Assembly: GCF_001704275.1 (NCBI RefSeq)
Contig: NZ_CP011533.1
Coordinates: 8,308,001 to 8,372,000 of the forward strand
Length of the DNA stretch: 64,000 nt
DNA from: Streptomyces noursei ATCC 11455
GTDB taxonomy: Bacteria; Actinomycetota; Actinomycetes; Streptomycetales; Streptomycetaceae
Direction of reading: 5' to 3'
In this document: piece by piece, positions 10,401 to 22,355 of the stretch
How positions within the stretch are numbered: position 1 is the first letter of the stretch
Layout: each line of letters opens with the position of its first letter
The notes under the pieces: generated by a model
The model's database searches: none
What the model was told of the DNA's origin: nothing
Seen by the model: the letters and a program-made list of their open reading frames with translations, nothing else
Program-made: the position numbers and the translations under genes

Positions 10401-11160
10401 TCAGCGGGCGGTGCCGGTGACCAGGAGGGCGGCTGCGGTGCCGATCAGGGCGCCGTTGGGGGTGGTGCTGCCGGTGGCGGCCAGCGCCCCGGTGCCGCCG
10501 ACGGTGCTGCCGCTGTTGAAGCTCGCGCCCGGTGCGCCGTCGGCGCCGCCCGCGGGGGCCGCGCCGGCGGAGGCGTGCGAGTCGTCGGATCCGGTTGCGT
10601 CGGACGGCAGTTGGACGCCGGGCTCGACGGCGACCGTCGCGTCGACCGGGTCGAGGGCCTCTCCCGTCGGGTACATGCCGGAGAACGCCTCGGAGCCGGC
10701 GGCGGTCAGGGTCGCCGGGACGTTCTTGAGGGTGACCACGCCGCCCTTGGCGGTGAGCGTGCCCGTCGGCAGCTTCAGATCGGCGATCGGGGTGTCGGGG
10801 GTGGTGACGACCCGTGCCGGGGCCCGGCCCTCCTCGGTGCGCGGCTTGCTCGCGACGTCGGCGATCAACGTGCCCTTGCCGTTCTCGGCCTTGATGCGGA
10901 GGTTGCTGAACTTCAGGTCCAGCGCGCCGCCGTGGCCGGTGAAGCGCACCGCGCCGTTGAACTCCGCGACCAGGGTGGCCTCCTTGCCGTCGTAGGTGCC
11001 GTGCCCCTTGGGGAAGCGGTAGCCGGCCGCGGTGGCGGTGGCGCCGTCCGAGGGCTCGGCCTTGCCGTGCGCGATGGGGCCGTTGACGTAGTCGCGGAAC
11101 TTCTTCTTGACGCCCCAGTCGAGGTTTCCGCCGTGGAGCTTGCCGGAGTCGGCGGCCGGG
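10401..11160 (-). pseudogene. htaA: HtaA-type heme-binding wall protein, 5' truncated
   Basis: About 250 residues remain. One HtaA domain is recognisable, from [15 protein letters not shown] to about residue 185, followed by a Ser/Gly/Ala-rich spacer. The C-terminal sorting signal has LAATG (the class E sortase LAxTG form), a hydrophobic stretch and a final Arg. Such proteins are exported and anchored in the wall to capture heme. The signal peptide and N-terminal part are missing. Homology stops near 11160, exactly where ABC-ATPase sequence on the other strand begins. No plausible start or ribosome site is present, so I call it a remnant; a short fusion product cannot be fully excluded. Confidence 0.75.
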
Positions 11161-11514
11161 CGGGGAGCGCGCGCGAGTGGCACTGGCCCGGGTACTGGCC
11201 CAGCGCGCCCCGCTGCTCCTGCTCGACGAACCGACCGCCGCCCTGGACCTGCGCCACCAGGAGCTGGTGCTCGGGATCTGCCGGCAGCGGGCGGCGGCCG
11301 GGGACGCGGTCGTCGTGGTGCTCCACGACCTCGGGCTGGCCTCGGCGTACGCGGACCGGGCCGCCGTGCTGCACGGCGGACGGATCGCCGCCCAGGCCCG
11401 CCGGCCGAGGTCTTCGAGGCGGACCTGCTGTCCCGGATCTACCGACAGCCGATCGAGGTGGTCGCCCACCCCGGCACCGGCACGCCCCTGGTCGTTCCCG
11501 TACGCCCGCGCTGA
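11159..11514 (+). pseudogene. hmuV: heme ABC transporter ATPase (HmuV-like), truncated and frameshifted
   Basis: Only the C-terminal half is left. It starts at the GGE of the ABC signature and continues through the Walker B segment [12 protein letters not shown] and the VLHD switch histidine. The Walker A half is gone. Near 11396 a missing base moves the frame: the expected ending, with [21 protein letters not shown], is in the next frame and stops at 11514. Normally the ATPase drives heme import with HmuT and HmuU, both absent here. Together with the adjoining HtaA remnant this shows a lost heme-uptake locus. Confidence 0.8.
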
Positions 11515-16598: not shown

Positions 16599-16940
16599 GG
16601 TGGGGGGCCTTTCGTGGACGGCCGGTGGGCGCAGGGTGAGCGGCCGCCGGTTCGGGGTGGCCGCTCACCGTCCGGGGCAGGTTAACCGCCGGGTCGGCCG
16701 GTGATCGGGCAGGCAGACGGTCCTGGGCGATGTGTTCGAACGCGGTGGTCGGGGGCGGTCGGCGGCGGCGTGCCGGTGGCCGGCCGGGCCGGGCCCGGGG
16801 GCCGCCCTCGGCCGTCGCCGCCGTTCGGGTGGCCGCACGGCCGGCACCCTCTAAAGCCCCCGGCCGAGCCGGCGGCGGCCGGTGCGACGGACTTTCCCCG
16901 CCTCGATTCACGGCCCGAGCCCCGCCTTGTCTACCCTGTA

Positions 16941-17141
16941 CGCGCAGCTGGTTCACCTCGCCCGCCAGGCGAGGTGTCGCGAGCGGGAACCCGGTGCACG
17001 TCCGGGACTGCCTCGCAGCGGTGAGTGGGAACGACCGCCGTCATGACGCACCGGGCACGTCCGTGGCCCGGGAAGCGACGGCCGAGGGAGTCCCGTTCTT
17101 CGGGGCGTGCCCACGAGTCCGAAGACCTGCCACTGCCCGTG
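16941..17141 (+). promoter_or_regulatory. cobalamin riboswitch upstream of thiI
   Basis: The leader contains the conserved cobalamin aptamer blocks in order: the GGGAACCCGGTG segment at 16985, a CCGGGACTGCC block, the core GCAGCGGTGAGTGGGAACGA at 17016, a GCGACGG block and the 3' GAGTCCGAAGACCTGCC block ending near 17131. An outer stem between about 16941 and 17141 is only approximate. The aptamer ends about 160 bases before the thiI start. The final bases CGCGAAGGAGAGTTTCGTG, with ribosome site and start, are nearly identical to those before metE. Binding of cobalamin would be expected to lower downstream expression. Confidence 0.92.
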
Positions 17142-17302
17142 CGGGGTGCGATCACCGCGCACGCGTCCACGGCGACCCGGCAGCGGGACCGCTGAGCGAG
17201 TGGTGCGCCTCCACCCCACCGTGCCCCGGGCACGAGGGGCCGGCCTGCCTGCCGTTCACGGCCCGGCGCCGGTCCTCACGACGACTCGCGAAGGAGAGTT
17301 TC

Positions 17303-18637
17303 GTGCCCGGCGAACCGAGCATTCCCGCCATCCCGTCCCCCGCAGGGCCACGCCCGAGCGGGCACTGCGTCCTGCTCAAGCACGGCGAGATCGTCCTCAA
17401 GGGCCGCAACCGGCACCGGTTCACCGAGCGGCTGCACGACAACCTCCGCCGCTCCCTGCGCGGAATCGGCGGCTCCACCTGGATCAAGTCCGGTCAGCAC
17501 GTCACCGTGCTCGGCGGCGACGTCCCCCAGGACGTCCTGGTCGACCGCGCCCGCCGGGTGATCGGGTTCAACTCGGTGGAGCCCGCCGTGCGCGTGCCCA
17601 CCTCCGTGACGGACATCACCGAGGCAGCCGTGGACGCGCTGGCCGGCGTCCGCGCCGAGCGGCCCGGCGTCACCTTCGCCGTGCGGGTCAAGCGCCGGAA
17701 CAAGAACTTCGAGATGACCTCGTCGCAGTTCGAGCGCTTCCTCGGGGCCCGGGTCCGGGAAGCCCTCGGGCCGGTGCCGGTGAACCTCTCCCACCCCGAC
17801 GTGCGGATCTCCATCGAGATCGACCACAAGGAAAGCTATGTCTCCTGGGTCCGCCATCAGGGGCCGGGCGGACTGCCCGTCGGCTCCAGCGGACGCGCGC
17901 TGGTGCTGCTGTCCGGTGGGTACGACTCACCGGTGGCGGCCTATCGGGCCATGCGCCGTGGACTGCGCTGCGATTTCGTCCACTTCACCGGCGCTCCCTA
18001 CACGAACGCCGCCTCCATGTACAAGGCGTACGCCCTGGCCAGGGAACTCAACCGCTGTCAGCCCGCCGGACGGCTGCATGTCATCGCGCTCGGCCAGGCA
18101 CAGAAGCAGTTGGCGATCGCGGGGGCCGGCAGGCTCCAAGTCGTCGCACAACGACGGCTCATGGTCCGCGTGGCCTCCGCGCTGGCGGGCCGGATCGCGG
18201 CGGAGGCCCTGGTGACCGGCGACAGCCTGGGGCAGGTGGCCAGTCAGACCCTGGCGAACCTGGCCGCCGTCGACGAGGCCGCCACCCTGCCGGTGCTGCG
18301 CCCGCTGATCGGCTGGGAGAAGCAGGAGATCATCGACGAAGCCCGGTCCATCGGCACCGAACAGATCTCCGTACTGCCCGACGAGGACTGCTGCAAGCTC
18401 CTCGCACCGCCCCGGGTCACCCTCCGGGCCGGCCTGGCCGACCTGCGGTCGGTGGAGAAGCGCCTCGACCTGGACGACCTGGTGGACGGGCTGCTGCGGG
18501 ACGTCCAGATCATGCACCCGGGGGAGACCGACGAGGAGACGGCCACCGAAGCGGGCAGCCCGGACGAGGACCCCGCCCCGGCCCGGACCGGCCCGCCCGT
18601 GTGCGGTGCGCCGGCAGGGGCCGCGCAGGCGCCGTAG
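17303..18637 (+). CDS. thiI: ThiI: tRNA 4-thiouridine / thiazole sulfurtransferase
   Basis: A 444-residue ThiI homologue. The N-terminal ferredoxin-like and THUMP region runs to about residue 175. The PP-loop ATPase motif LLSGGYDSP is near residue 206, and the LPDEDCCKLLAPP cysteine segment is present. The protein ends in a Glu/Pro-rich tail and lacks the C-terminal rhodanese domain of the E. coli protein. ThiI adenylates U8 of tRNA and inserts sulfur, and some homologues feed thiamine synthesis. The GTG start at 17303 has GAAGGAG upstream. A cobalamin riboswitch controls it, which is unusual for this family. A terminator follows the stop. Confidence 0.92.
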   Translation: MPGEPSIPAIPSPAGPRPSGHCVLLKHGEIVLKGRNRHRFTERLHDNLRRSLRGIGGSTWIKSGQHVTVLGGDVPQDVLVDRARRVIGFNSVEPAVRVPTSVTDITEAAVDALAGVRAERPGVTFAVRVKRRNKNFEMTSSQFERFLGARVREALGPVPVNLSHPDVRISIEIDHKESYVSWVRHQGPGGLPVGSSGRALVLLSGGYDSPVAAYRAMRRGLRCDFVHFTGAPYTNAASMYKAYALARELNRCQPAGRLHVIALGQAQKQLAIAGAGRLQVVAQRRLMVRVASALAGRIAAEALVTGDSLGQVASQTLANLAAVDEAATLPVLRPLIGWEKQEIIDEARSIGTEQISVLPDEDCCKLLAPPRVTLRAGLADLRSVEKRLDLDDLVDGLLRDVQIMHPGETDEETATEAGSPDEDPAPARTGPPVCGAPAGAAQAP

Positions 18638-18695: not shown

Positions 18696-19103
18696 TTACT
18701 TGGCCGCGCGCTTCTTGCGTGCCGGCTTCGACGTGGGAGCCTCGGAGGCGCGGGCGACGGCCACGAAGGGCTTGACCGCTTCCTGGAGCTTGGCCACGTT
18801 CTCGGCGCCGAGGTCGGCCTCGTACCACTTGAGATCGAGAACCTGACGGATCGCGATCTTCTTGGTGCCGTCCTCGTTCGACTCCTCGGTCTCGTATTCC
18901 TCGTCGACCATCTCGGGGACGGCGAACCGGATCGGCGTGACGCCGTCCGTCACCTCGGGATTGAGGTCGTCCTGGAGAATCGACTGCCAGTAAGTCGCCT
19001 TCTTGACAATCTGGTTGCCGACCGGAACAGGAGTGATTACCTCCTGAACACCCGGCTCATCCTTCTGCGACTCATCAACCTGGATGGTTTCCTTGACGGC
19101 CAT
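18696..19103 (-). CDS. small acidic protein with Lsr2-like dimerisation motif and Lys/Arg tail
   Basis: 135 residues. The ATG at 19103 has an AAGGGG-type ribosome site and replaces a longer in-frame start. Residues about 94-116 (WYEADLGAENVAKLQEAVKPF) resemble the second half of the Lsr2 oligomerisation domain (YEIDL..NA.KLR..L.P). An acidic Glu/Asp-rich insertion precedes it, and the protein ends in PARKKRAAK. The Lsr2 DNA-binding helix domain with its RGR motif is absent. The gene has more A/T in third codon positions than its neighbours, and an untranslated AT-rich stretch lies upstream. It may be a shortened nucleoid-associated protein, an Lsr2 modulator or a phage-derived protein. The function is not known to me. 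Confidence 0.7.
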   Translation of the reverse strand: MAVKETIQVDESQKDEPGVQEVITPVPVGNQIVKKATYWQSILQDDLNPEVTDGVTPIRFAVPEMVDEEYETEESNEDGTKKIAIRQVLDLKWYEADLGAENVAKLQEAVKPFVAVARASEAPTSKPARKKRAAK

Positions 19104-19653
19104 TTTTGCGCCCCTTTCCTGTGCGGTGCACCCCAAACTTTAGTGGAAATAGGTGAGTTGAAGCCAATCGGCGACGGGGGCTAGATCATGCCGGTCTCCG
19201 CTCGCGAACGGATGGGCAAGTCAGCTGGTCATCGCCGACATCCCAGGCATTCTCCGGAAACTTCCACTCCCCGCGAGTCGCCGCCCGCGCCCGTCGGTGA
19301 ACTGCTCTGCAAAACCACCCATCTCCTCTGTGACCAGCCCCTTTCCGTGCCGAATTGGCACGCTGTGGGGCGTGCCTTTCGCCCCTGCTGCCGCTTCCTT
19401 GGAATTCCTGGATTCCTGCCCCGCGTCCACGGCGGTGCCGTCCCCATCGATATCGAAGTACTTCGGGACCGGAGGACGCGGGGAGGGGAAAGGGGCGCCG
19501 GCGAGGGCGGGCGCGCGGCGACGCGTGCGGACCGGTGCTCCGGGGGTCGCGCCGCGCCCCGCCGCGGCCGAACCCTGCGCCACCTGTGTCTCATCTCATA
19601 GTCCGGCATCTGAACATGGGTGACCGTCAGGGGGACGGCGTTCTACGCTGGCC
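19104..19653. other. intergenic region, no supported gene
   Basis: About 550 bp between the Lsr2-like start and the metE riboswitch. Open frames on the minus strand here (for example 19221-19583) have mixed codon use, no ribosome site and no recognisable family. Base composition is less GC-rich around 19280-19420 than in the surrounding genes. It must hold the divergent promoters of both flanking transcripts, but I could not place them reliably. Confidence 0.5.
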
Positions 19654-19861
19654 GGGCAACAGGTTCGCCCCGTCCGCCAGACGGGAGCGTCGCAAGAGGG
19701 AACCCGGTGGGAATCCGGGACTGCCCCGCAGCGGTGAGTGGGAACGACCGCCGTCATACGCACTGGATCCGGGCCGCGGATCCGGGAAGCGACGGCCAGT
19801 AGGTGCCCGCCGGAAGACTCCGGCAGGCGCGCCCGCGAGTCCGAAGACCTGCCCGTTGCCC
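19654..19861 (+). promoter_or_regulatory. cobalamin riboswitch upstream of metE
   Basis: The outer stem is clear: GGGCAAC at 19654-19660 pairs with GTTGCCC at 19855-19861. Inside lie the GGGAACCCGGTGG block, the GGGACTGCCCCGCAGCGGTG core at 19718, GTGGGAACGACCGCCGTC, GCGACGGCC and the closing GAGTCCGAAGACCTGCCC block. A CTCCT at 19983-19987 could pair with the AGGAG ribosome site at 20027, which suggests translational control. Repression of metE by cobalamin is well established in bacteria that also have MetH. Confidence 0.95.
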
Positions 19862-20036
19862 GTGTGCGCCCCTGCGTACACGGACATCCCGGTGACCTCG
19901 AGGGCGGGTCGGCGTACATACCAGGCGGACACGTGCGTCGCGAGCGCACCGTGGATCCGCCCGGTTCGTCATCCCTTCGCGCTCCTCGTTCCCTCGCCGG
20001 GACGTTTCAGGAGACCATTTCGCGAAGGAGAGTTCC

Positions 20037-22355
20037 GTGACAGCGAAGCCCGCAGCCGCGGCAGCACGGGCCACCGTGTACGGCTACCCCCGCCAGGGCC
20101 GGCACCGGGAACTGAAGAAGGCCGTCGAGGGCTATTGGAAGGGCAAGGTCACCGCCGACGCCCTGACGGAGACCGCCCGCACCCTGCGCCGTGCCCACTG
20201 GCGGCGACTGGCCGACGCCGGCATCCACGAGGTGCCCACCGGTGACTTCTCGTACTACGACCATGTGCTGGACACCAGCGTCATGGTCGGTGCCGTCCCG
20301 GACCGCCACCGCGCCGCCGTCGCGGCCGACGCCCTCGACGGCTACTTCGCGATGGCGCGCGGCACGCAGGACGTCGCGCCGCTGGAGATGACCAAGTGGT
20401 TCGACACCAACTACCACTATCTCGTGCCGGAGTTGGGCCCCGACACCGTCTTCGCCGCCGACTCCGCAAAGCAGGTGGCCGAGTTCGAGGAGGCCCTCGC
20501 GCTCGGGCTGACGGCCCGGCCGGTGCTGGTCGGCCCGGTCACCTACCTCCTGCTGTCGAAGCCCGCCCCAGGCGTGGCCGCCGACTTCGAGCCGCTGACC
20601 CTCCTCGACCGGCTGCTGCCGGTCTACGCGCAGGTCCTCGCCGACCTGCGGGCGGCGGGCGCGGAGTGGGTGCAGCTCGACGAGCCCGCCCTGGTGCAGG
20701 ACCGCACCCCGGCCGACCTGAACGCCGCCGCACGGGCCTACCGCGAACTGGGCACCCGTACCGACCGCCCGAAACTGCTGGTCGCGTCGTACTTCGACCG
20801 GCTCGGCGATGCCCTGCCCGTACTGGCCAAGGCTCCGGTGGACGGACTGGCGCTCGACTTCACCGACGCGGCCGCGGCCAACCTCGACGCGCTGGCGGCC
20901 GTCGGCGGACTGCCGGGCAAGCGCCTGGTGGCGGGCGTGGTCAACGGCCGCAACATCTGGATCAACGATCTGGAGAAGTCGCTGGCCACCCTCGGCACCC
21001 TGCTCGGCCTCGCCGACCGGGTCGATGTGGCGGCGTCCTGCTCCCTGCTGCACGTGCCGCTGGACGCCGCCCTGGAGCGGGACATCGACCCGCAGATCGC
21101 CCGTTGGCTGGCCTTCGCCAGGCAGAAGACCACGGAGCTGGTGACCCTGGCCCGCGGCCTGTCGCAGGGCACCGACACCATCGCCGCCGAACTCGCCGCG
21201 AACCGCGCCGACCTGGCCTCCCGAGCCAATTCGGTCCTCACCCACGACCCGGCCGTGCGGGCCCGCGTCGCGGCCGTCACCGAGGCCGACGTCCGGCGCT
21301 CCCAGGCATATGGCCAGCGGACCGTCGCCCAGCGCACCCACCTCGGCCTGCCGCTGCTGCCGACCACCACCATCGGATCCTTCCCCCAGACCGACGAACT
21401 GCGCGCCGCCCGCGCGGACCTGCGGGCCGGCCGGATCGACACCGCCGGTTACGAGGAGCGGATCAGGGCCGAGATCCAGGAGGTCGTCTCCTTCCAGGAG
21501 AAGGCCGGGCTGGACGTCCTGGTGCACGGCGAGCCCGAACGCAACGACATGGTCCAGTACTTCGCCGAGCAGCTCACCGGCTATCTCGCCACCCGGCACG
21601 GCTGGGTGCAGTCCTACGGCACCCGCTACGTCCGCCCGCCGGTGCTGGCCGGTGACATCTCCCGTCCCGAGCCCATGACGGTCCGTTGGACGACCTATGC
21701 CCAGTCACTGACCGAACGCCCCGTCAAGGGCATGCTCACCGGTCCCGTCACCATGCTCGCCTGGTCCTTCGTCCGCGACGACCAGCCACTGGCGCGGACC
21801 GCGCGCCAGGTCGCCCTGGCACTGCGCGACGAGGTCGCCGACCTGGAGGCGGCCGGCACATCGGTGATCCAGGTGGACGAGCCGGCGCTCCGCGAGACGC
21901 TGCCGCTGCGCGCCGCCGACCGCCCCGCGTACCTGGCGTGGGCCACCGATGCCTTCCGCCTGTCCACCAGCGGGGTGCGCCCGGACACCCAGATCCACAC
22001 CCACATGTGCTACGCCGAGTTCGGCGACATCGTGCAGGCCATCGACGACCTCGACGCGGACGTGATCAGCCTGGAGGCCACCCGGTCCCATATGCAGGTC
22101 GCCCGGGAGCTGGCCGCCCACGGCTACCCGCGCGAGGCCGGACCCGGCGTGTACGACATCCACTCCCCGCGCGTGCCGAGCCCGGCGGAGGCGGCGGACC
22201 TGCTGCGCACCGGCCTGCGGGCCATCCCCGCCGAACGCCTGTGGGTCAACCCCGACTGCGGGCTCAAGACCCGTGACTGGCCCGAGGTGCGGGCCTCCCT
22301 GGAGAGCCTGGTGGCCGCGGCCCGCACGGTCCGTGCGGAGCTGCCGACCTCCTGA
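20037..22355 (+). CDS. metE: cobalamin-independent methionine synthase
   Basis: A 772-residue enzyme that transfers a methyl group from methyltetrahydropteroyl-triglutamate to homocysteine. Both barrel domains are present; the N-terminal one begins with GYPRQGRHRELKKAVEGYWKG. The C-terminal zinc site is visible as HTHMCYAEF and the later cysteine in VNPDCGLKTR. The GTG start follows GAAGGAG. Regulation is through the cobalamin riboswitch just upstream, so expression should rise when B12 is scarce. A strong terminator follows. Confidence 0.97.
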   Translation: MTAKPAAAAARATVYGYPRQGRHRELKKAVEGYWKGKVTADALTETARTLRRAHWRRLADAGIHEVPTGDFSYYDHVLDTSVMVGAVPDRHRAAVAADALDGYFAMARGTQDVAPLEMTKWFDTNYHYLVPELGPDTVFAADSAKQVAEFEEALALGLTARPVLVGPVTYLLLSKPAPGVAADFEPLTLLDRLLPVYAQVLADLRAAGAEWVQLDEPALVQDRTPADLNAAARAYRELGTRTDRPKLLVASYFDRLGDALPVLAKAPVDGLALDFTDAAAANLDALAAVGGLPGKRLVAGVVNGRNIWINDLEKSLATLGTLLGLADRVDVAASCSLLHVPLDAALERDIDPQIARWLAFARQKTTELVTLARGLSQGTDTIAAELAANRADLASRANSVLTHDPAVRARVAAVTEADVRRSQAYGQRTVAQRTHLGLPLLPTTTIGSFPQTDELRAARADLRAGRIDTAGYEERIRAEIQEVVSFQEKAGLDVLVHGEPERNDMVQYFAEQLTGYLATRHGWVQSYGTRYVRPPVLAGDISRPEPMTVRWTTYAQSLTERPVKGMLTGPVTMLAWSFVRDDQPLARTARQVALALRDEVADLEAAGTSVIQVDEPALRETLPLRAADRPAYLAWATDAFRLSTSGVRPDTQIHTHMCYAEFGDIVQAIDDLDADVISLEATRSHMQVARELAAHGYPREAGPGVYDIHSPRVPSPAEAADLLRTGLRAIPAERLWVNPDCGLKTRDWPEVRASLESLVAAARTVRAELPTS

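Follow-up and report, generated by a model that had tools for sequence, protein, structure and literature searches.

A predicted cobalamin riboswitch upstream of thiI in Streptomyces noursei and its recurrence beside B12-independent enzymes in relatives

A tRNA sulfurtransferase gene upstream of metE

The window, i.e., the entire 64,000-nucleotide stretch of the Streptomyces noursei ATCC 11455 genome that was analyzed, encodes a ThiI protein at 17303..18637 (+ strand; GTG start at 17303-17305; 444 aa), which TIGR00342, Pfam and structure matches assign to the tRNA uracil 4-sulfurtransferase family. The protein scored 326.4 bits against TIGR00342 (cut-off 264.5), contains the Pfam domains PF02568, THUMP (PF02926) and the ferredoxin-like ThiI_fer (PF22025), and matches the ThiI structures 2c5s and 4kr6. 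We identified the catalytic motifs as a PP-loop SGGYDSP and DEDCC, with the cysteine aligned with that of 2c5s. Among the 41 proteins of the Streptomyces clade described below, SGGxDSP is kept in all and DCC in 40 (the stretch of L067 that was used is without it). Seven ThiI pairs have a Ka/Ks of about 0.2-0.25. The thiI of S. noursei A-2-1 is 97% identical to the window gene, and the ThiI of another genome, G425, is 82-83% identical.

No match to a rhodanese domain was found in the window ThiI by the Pfam scan. Given that the thiamine service of ThiI in Salmonella depends on the rhodanese domain, a thiamine role for the window protein is disfavored. No cysteine desulfurase gene was recognized among the Pfam-scanned neighbors of thiI. 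The rhodanese-free Gram-positive ThiI described for B. subtilis (PMC5372745) likewise combines ferredoxin-like, THUMP and PP-loop domains; the window protein differs from this type in its predicted B12 control and in its patchy occurrence in the genus (14 of 392 genomes).

Downstream, metE (20037..22355, + strand) encodes the B12-independent methionine synthase (TIGR01371, 1041 bits; cut-off 929.95). Between thiI and metE, positions 18696-19106 (- strand) encode a 136-aa protein whose Lsr2 dimerization match is weak (27.8 bits against a cut-off of 29.6) and for which tblastn gave matches in the window and L021 only, among the loci compared. The opposite strand encodes an HtaA-domain protein (10404-11183, - strand) and a transketolase (NF004559; 14727-16598, - strand) upstream of this leader and gene pair.

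Cobalamin aptamers in the thiI and metE leaders

A cmscan of the 64-kb window (RF00174 gathering score of 31.5) found two cobalamin aptamers, one in the thiI leader (16931..17148, + strand; 72.0 bits, E = 8.8e-16) and one in the metE leader (19644..19870, + strand; 86.3 bits, E = 6.8e-20), both of which cover the full model (positions 1-189). This confirms the first-pass annotation, made from the sequence alone, in which thiI was said to carry a full cobalamin aptamer. The whole genome, 9.8 Mb in length, has eight RF00174 matches. Compensatory changes, in which both sides are altered and the pair is kept, occur in at least one of eight thiI leaders at 11 of the 59 predicted pairs of the thiI aptamer.

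The spacing between aptamer and start codon is 154 nt for thiI and 166 nt for metE. In S. coelicolor, B12 causes the metE riboswitch to stop transcription 155 nt upstream of the start codon (PMC4365011, the main text of which gives this partly as "data not shown"). As the end of the window thiI aptamer falls at nearly the same distance, premature termination would be the simplest inference for the thiI leader. A GC-rich hairpin over the 3′ edge of the aptamer (17138..17163, + strand) in the predicted fold of this leader is a candidate switching element. Consensus scans of positions 16600-17320 returned neither a sigma-70 promoter nor a U-tract terminator.

A second layer of control is possible in the 13 of 16 leaders that have a CCTTCG motif, which could mask the ribosome site by pairing with it and does so in 5 of the 16 predicted folds. 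The motif is absent from the thiI leaders of the window, A-2-1 and HNM0574 and, by eye, from that of G425, and this layer would not extend to the window thiI leader. The missing motif, together with a score below that of the metE leader, would fit a decayed aptamer through which thiI of this species has ceased to be regulated. We regard such decay as very unlikely, given that the aptamer is of full model length, that its invariant core is common to seven other thiI leaders, and that the thiI aptamers of A-2-1 and G425 score 86.4 and 78.9 bits, respectively.

Relationship between the thiI and metE leaders

The 19 bases that comprise the ribosome site and GTG start of thiI (CGCGAAGGAGAGTTTCGTG; 17287..17305, + strand) and those of metE (20021..20039, + strand) agree at 18 positions. 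The single change was noted in the first-pass annotation, according to which a duplication of the metE leader seemed to have placed thiI under B12 control. We found GCGAAGGAGA plus the start codon in 16 of 18 metE, thiI and nrd leaders from 14 genomes, the exceptions being two nrd leaders. The 19-base block is thus no peculiarity of the thiI/metE pair of the window, as metE and thiI leaders of other Streptomyces have it too.

This interpretation is supported in part. The start block and aptamer indicate a leader of the metE type, but a recent local copy from the neighboring metE is rejected because the whole leaders of the two genes are only 65-67% identical. By comparison, the window metE leader is 80-84% identical to seven metE leaders that are not from S. 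noursei (six of them from different species, the seventh from a further genome) and 97% identical to the metE leader of A-2-1, and the G425 thiI leader is 82% identical to the window thiI leader. So the thiI and metE leaders are of one type, and any duplication is old. A leader tree had weak deep support and does not separate a single from a multiple origin of the thiI leaders. Set against the Streptomyces metE riboswitch, the thiI leader is alike in RF00174 family, start-codon spacing and ribosome-site block, and unlike in its tRNA-thiolation target, its lack of CCTTCG and its limited overall identity.

Distribution of thiI and of B12-headed thiI units

ThiI is infrequent in Streptomyces, with matches in 16 of 392 genomes, two of them fragments, so that 14 are full length. 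In a family sample, 21 of 394 genomes had a thiI match (one a fragment with stops), and in a class sample the TIGR00342 cut-off was passed in 24 of 246, mostly from one family (f17). Two plasmid records (H1 and H2), the relevant stretches of which have no annotation, also carry thiI.

A scan of GTDB species genomes yielded 50 thiI loci, a set collected by similarity of thiI to that of the window. Reference genes and an aptamer regular expression were mapped on these and on later loci, followed by a cmscan check. In a ThiI tree of 74 rows, the window falls inside a Streptomyces clade of 41 rows with support of 100/100. The tree leaves out two loci for which the aligned stretch was too short after cutting at a stop (L061 and L130), one fragment (L126) and six loci on the same contigs as other rows (L117, L118, L120, L123, L124 and L125).

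The first-pass annotation had suggested looking for cobalamin riboswitches in the thiI leaders of related genomes. This check showed that placement of thiI behind an aptamer recurs in other species. In 15 of the 41 clade loci, the presumed thiI unit begins with an aptamer, and three architectures occur among them. In eight the aptamer directly precedes thiI (the window, L021, L025, L029, L037, L038, L039 and L116), in three the order is aptamer-metE-thiI (L028, L031 and L072), and in four it is aptamer-nrdI-nrdE-nrdF-thiI (L026, L119, L121 and L122). Two further rows have nrdF-thiI with a head that is not judgeable, one being cut by a contig end (L030) and one having a partial metE abutting nrdF (L071). 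In three, thiI is merely near such genes, either close to aptamer-metE (L033 and L034) or behind aceA-aceB-hbd with no aptamer (L027). The remaining 21 rows, including a second thiI of the S. noursei genome, showed no B12 link, 19 by cmscan within the available stretch and two (L070 and L073) by the regular expression only. One of the aptamer-thiI loci, L038, also has a Guanidine-III riboswitch (1130-1191, - strand; 53 bits).

The 21 thiI genomes of the family sample provided nine further stretches, of which four were contigs already counted and five were new. Of six other new genomes in this sample, five were identical to counted loci and one (G753, L161) lies outside the context count. Among the five new loci, L164 has an aptamer about 340 bp before thiI on the same strand, and L166 and L170 have aptamer-nrdIEF-thiI, with stops in the thiI of L170 (genome G904). 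In L168, from another genus, thiI is beside prpC with aptamer-metE some 4 kb upstream, and in L165 the aptamer is 5.5 kb off and outside the thiI unit. Pooled, an aptamer heads the presumed thiI unit in 18 of 46 loci (three of the five later ones), which are related and do not represent independent events. Aptamers are sparse, 267 in 35 genomes or about one per Mb, and their placement at thiI by chance is therefore implausible.

Fragments or stop-bearing copies of thiI occur in L126 (G343), L170 (G904) and L013 (G015). Two of these lie behind aptamer-metE (G343) and aptamer-nrdIEF (G904), as would be expected of a dispensable passenger, and 21 of the 41 clade rows do without B12 control. Both observations would be explained if thiI had settled near metE or nrdIEF and been caught in B12-regulated transcription without benefit, making its control incidental. 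We consider such hitch-hiking improbable in view of the three architectures, of the eight rows in which thiI has its own aptamer directly upstream with compensatory pair changes, and of the presence of thiI in all five of the 392 genomes that have nrdF.

In Pseudonocardiales and kin, metH-ahcY(-metF) precedes thiI by 1.3-4.2 kb in the same orientation, and the regular expression gave no aptamer. These loci (metH-ahcY-metF in L051, L054 and L059; metH-ahcY in L049 and L061) comprise four close kin and one other and were not used as evidence.

Islands of B12-independent enzymes

In several relatives, thiI belongs to islands of genes for enzymes that operate without B12. The fullest islands (L119 and L122) encode hbd, part of aceB, aptamer-metE, aptamer-nrdI-nrdE-nrdF-thiI, prpC and prpD. 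L026, L121 and L166 hold most of these genes; L121 has whole aceA and aceB genes and no metE in view. The gene names rest on representatives, which were assigned to NrdI, NrdE and NrdF of class Ib (TIGR00333, TIGR04170 and TIGR04171), isocitrate lyase, malate synthase A and 2-methylcitrate synthase; the PrpD-like protein scored 848.7 bits, below its cut-off of 950. Class Ib ribonucleotide reductase (RNR), MetE and the glyoxylate enzymes can stand in, without B12, for NrdJ, MetH and the mutase routes that require it. For the methylcitrate enzymes, PMC4428469 describes a B12-independent alternative to the B12-dependent mutase route.

The link between thiI and class Ib nrdF is close. All five nrdF genomes carry thiI (hypergeometric 2.7e-8 with 14 thiI genomes, a value that ignores linkage and kinship). 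In four of the five thiI adjoins nrdF, and in G372 the two are in the same island. Measured between match edges, nrdF and thiI are no more than about 70 nt apart in six loci. This tight linkage, together with the metE-thiI order in three loci, would also be accounted for if ThiI served class Ib RNR or MetE directly, for example as a sulfur donor or maturation factor, and not via tRNA. Neither enzyme is known to need sulfur. As the protein retains THUMP, which binds tRNA, and the PP-loop of ThiI, and the S. noursei genome has a B12-linked thiI without class Ib nrdF, a direct service of this kind seems quite unlikely.

Other neighbors of thiI are the genes aceAB, prpCD, nicT or cobF. A nickel/cobalt transporter precedes thiI in L025 and L029, and in L039 (7905-10045) thiI follows its own aptamer and cobF (TIGR02434) begins where thiI ends. 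As nrdIEF precedes thiI at least as often as metE does, a role for ThiI in methionine/sulfur balance or as a partner of MetE, as the first-pass annotation envisaged, is not specifically supported. With neighbors as varied as metE, nrdIEF, aceAB, prpCD, nicT and cobF, B12 shortage appears to be what unites them.

MetH and NrdJ are encoded by all of 17 genomes in which thiI is B12-linked or part of an island, and a loss of the B12 enzymes is thus rejected. QueG, the one B12-dependent tRNA enzyme looked for, is absent from all 17 genomes, so that ThiI does not replace it.

ThiI as a probable part of the response to B12 shortage

Based on gene context and aptamer placement, thiI is probably a member of the Streptomyces B12-repressed regulon, expressed with B12-independent enzymes when B12 or cobalt is scarce. 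Several relatives keep thiI under aptamers even beside other genes, which suggests that its part in the response to B12 shortage has been overlooked. With abundant adenosylcobalamin, the leader RNA of thiI would bind this cofactor and expression would be blocked before the coding region is reached. Under a shortage of B12, or of the cobalt required for its synthesis, thiI would be turned on together with metE and other B12-independent enzymes, and the rhodanese-free ThiI would thiolate U8 of tRNA to 4-thiouridine (s4U). We infer ligand binding and the direction of control by analogy with S. coelicolor metE and nrdABS, of which the latter is also under B12 control (PMC4991794). Transcription is presumably shared in the metE-thiI and nrdF-thiI arrangements, and tRNA thiolation is the presumed activity in this species. 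As with S. coelicolor nrdABS, a B12-independent RNR is preceded by a cobalamin riboswitch in the relatives studied here; theirs, however, is class Ib nrdI-nrdE-nrdF, in some cases with thiI directly behind nrdF.

The cobalamin regulon classes recognized so far, as listed in PMC3766115, are B12 synthesis, transport of B12 or its precursors, cobalt transport and isozymes of B12 enzymes. No link between thiI and a B12 riboswitch was found in open-licence PMC among the matches listed; the terms co-occur in a review on cyanobacteria. A tRNA-modifying enzyme that recurs in B12-headed units of three different builds would connect the vitamin with tRNA chemistry, and the direct question raised is whether s4U increases as B12 declines, and which functions suffer if s4U is missing. 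In addition, B12-linked thiI is a marker of islands that contain class Ib RNR, a rare enzyme in the genus (present in 5 of 392 Streptomyces genomes).

Why tRNA thiolation would be useful under these conditions can be addressed tentatively. s4U at position 8 (s4U8) raises the melting temperature of tRNA and, in Vibrio cholerae, shields some tRNAs against decay; tRNA-Tyr of this species is degraded when s4U8 plus either pseudouridine 55 or m5U54 is missing (PMC10969862). B12 shortage would lower methionine and SAM, and tRNA methylation would fall; s4U8 stiffens the tRNA core. Because s4U8 stabilizes tRNA, a methyl-independent modification might compensate for a low methyl supply. We therefore raise, as the leading speculation on purpose though a rather doubtful one, the idea that s4U8, which needs no methyl donor, protects tRNA during B12 shortage.

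B12 photoreceptors of the LitR/CarH type exist, and s4U could serve as a sensor of, or shield against, near-UV light that works without B12 once light sensing through the vitamin has failed. In favor of this idea, s4U8 senses near-UV light and is protective (PMC5372745 and PMC10969862). This use of s4U has little probability in our judgment. A broader proposal, which we find conceivable but rather unlikely, is that s4U is a conditional mark, made under B12 or cobalt shortage, of a portable B12-independence program that would offset either failing methyl-dependent tRNA maturation or lost B12 light sensing. By this program we mean MetE, class Ib RNR, the glyoxylate and methylcitrate enzymes and ThiI, in one Streptomyces lineage.

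The S. noursei genome encodes a second thiI (G000:C1:1028132-1029352, corresponding to L127:9336-10559), which is 72% identical to the window thiI and has no cobalamin aptamer. If expressed, this copy would make s4U regardless of B12, which weakens any case for B12 dependence of s4U itself in this strain. Its kin in the ThiI tree (L022, L023, L024, L053 and L073) form one clade without a B12 link, and in four of these loci (L022, L023, L024 and L053) an ABC-F gene is located beside thiI.
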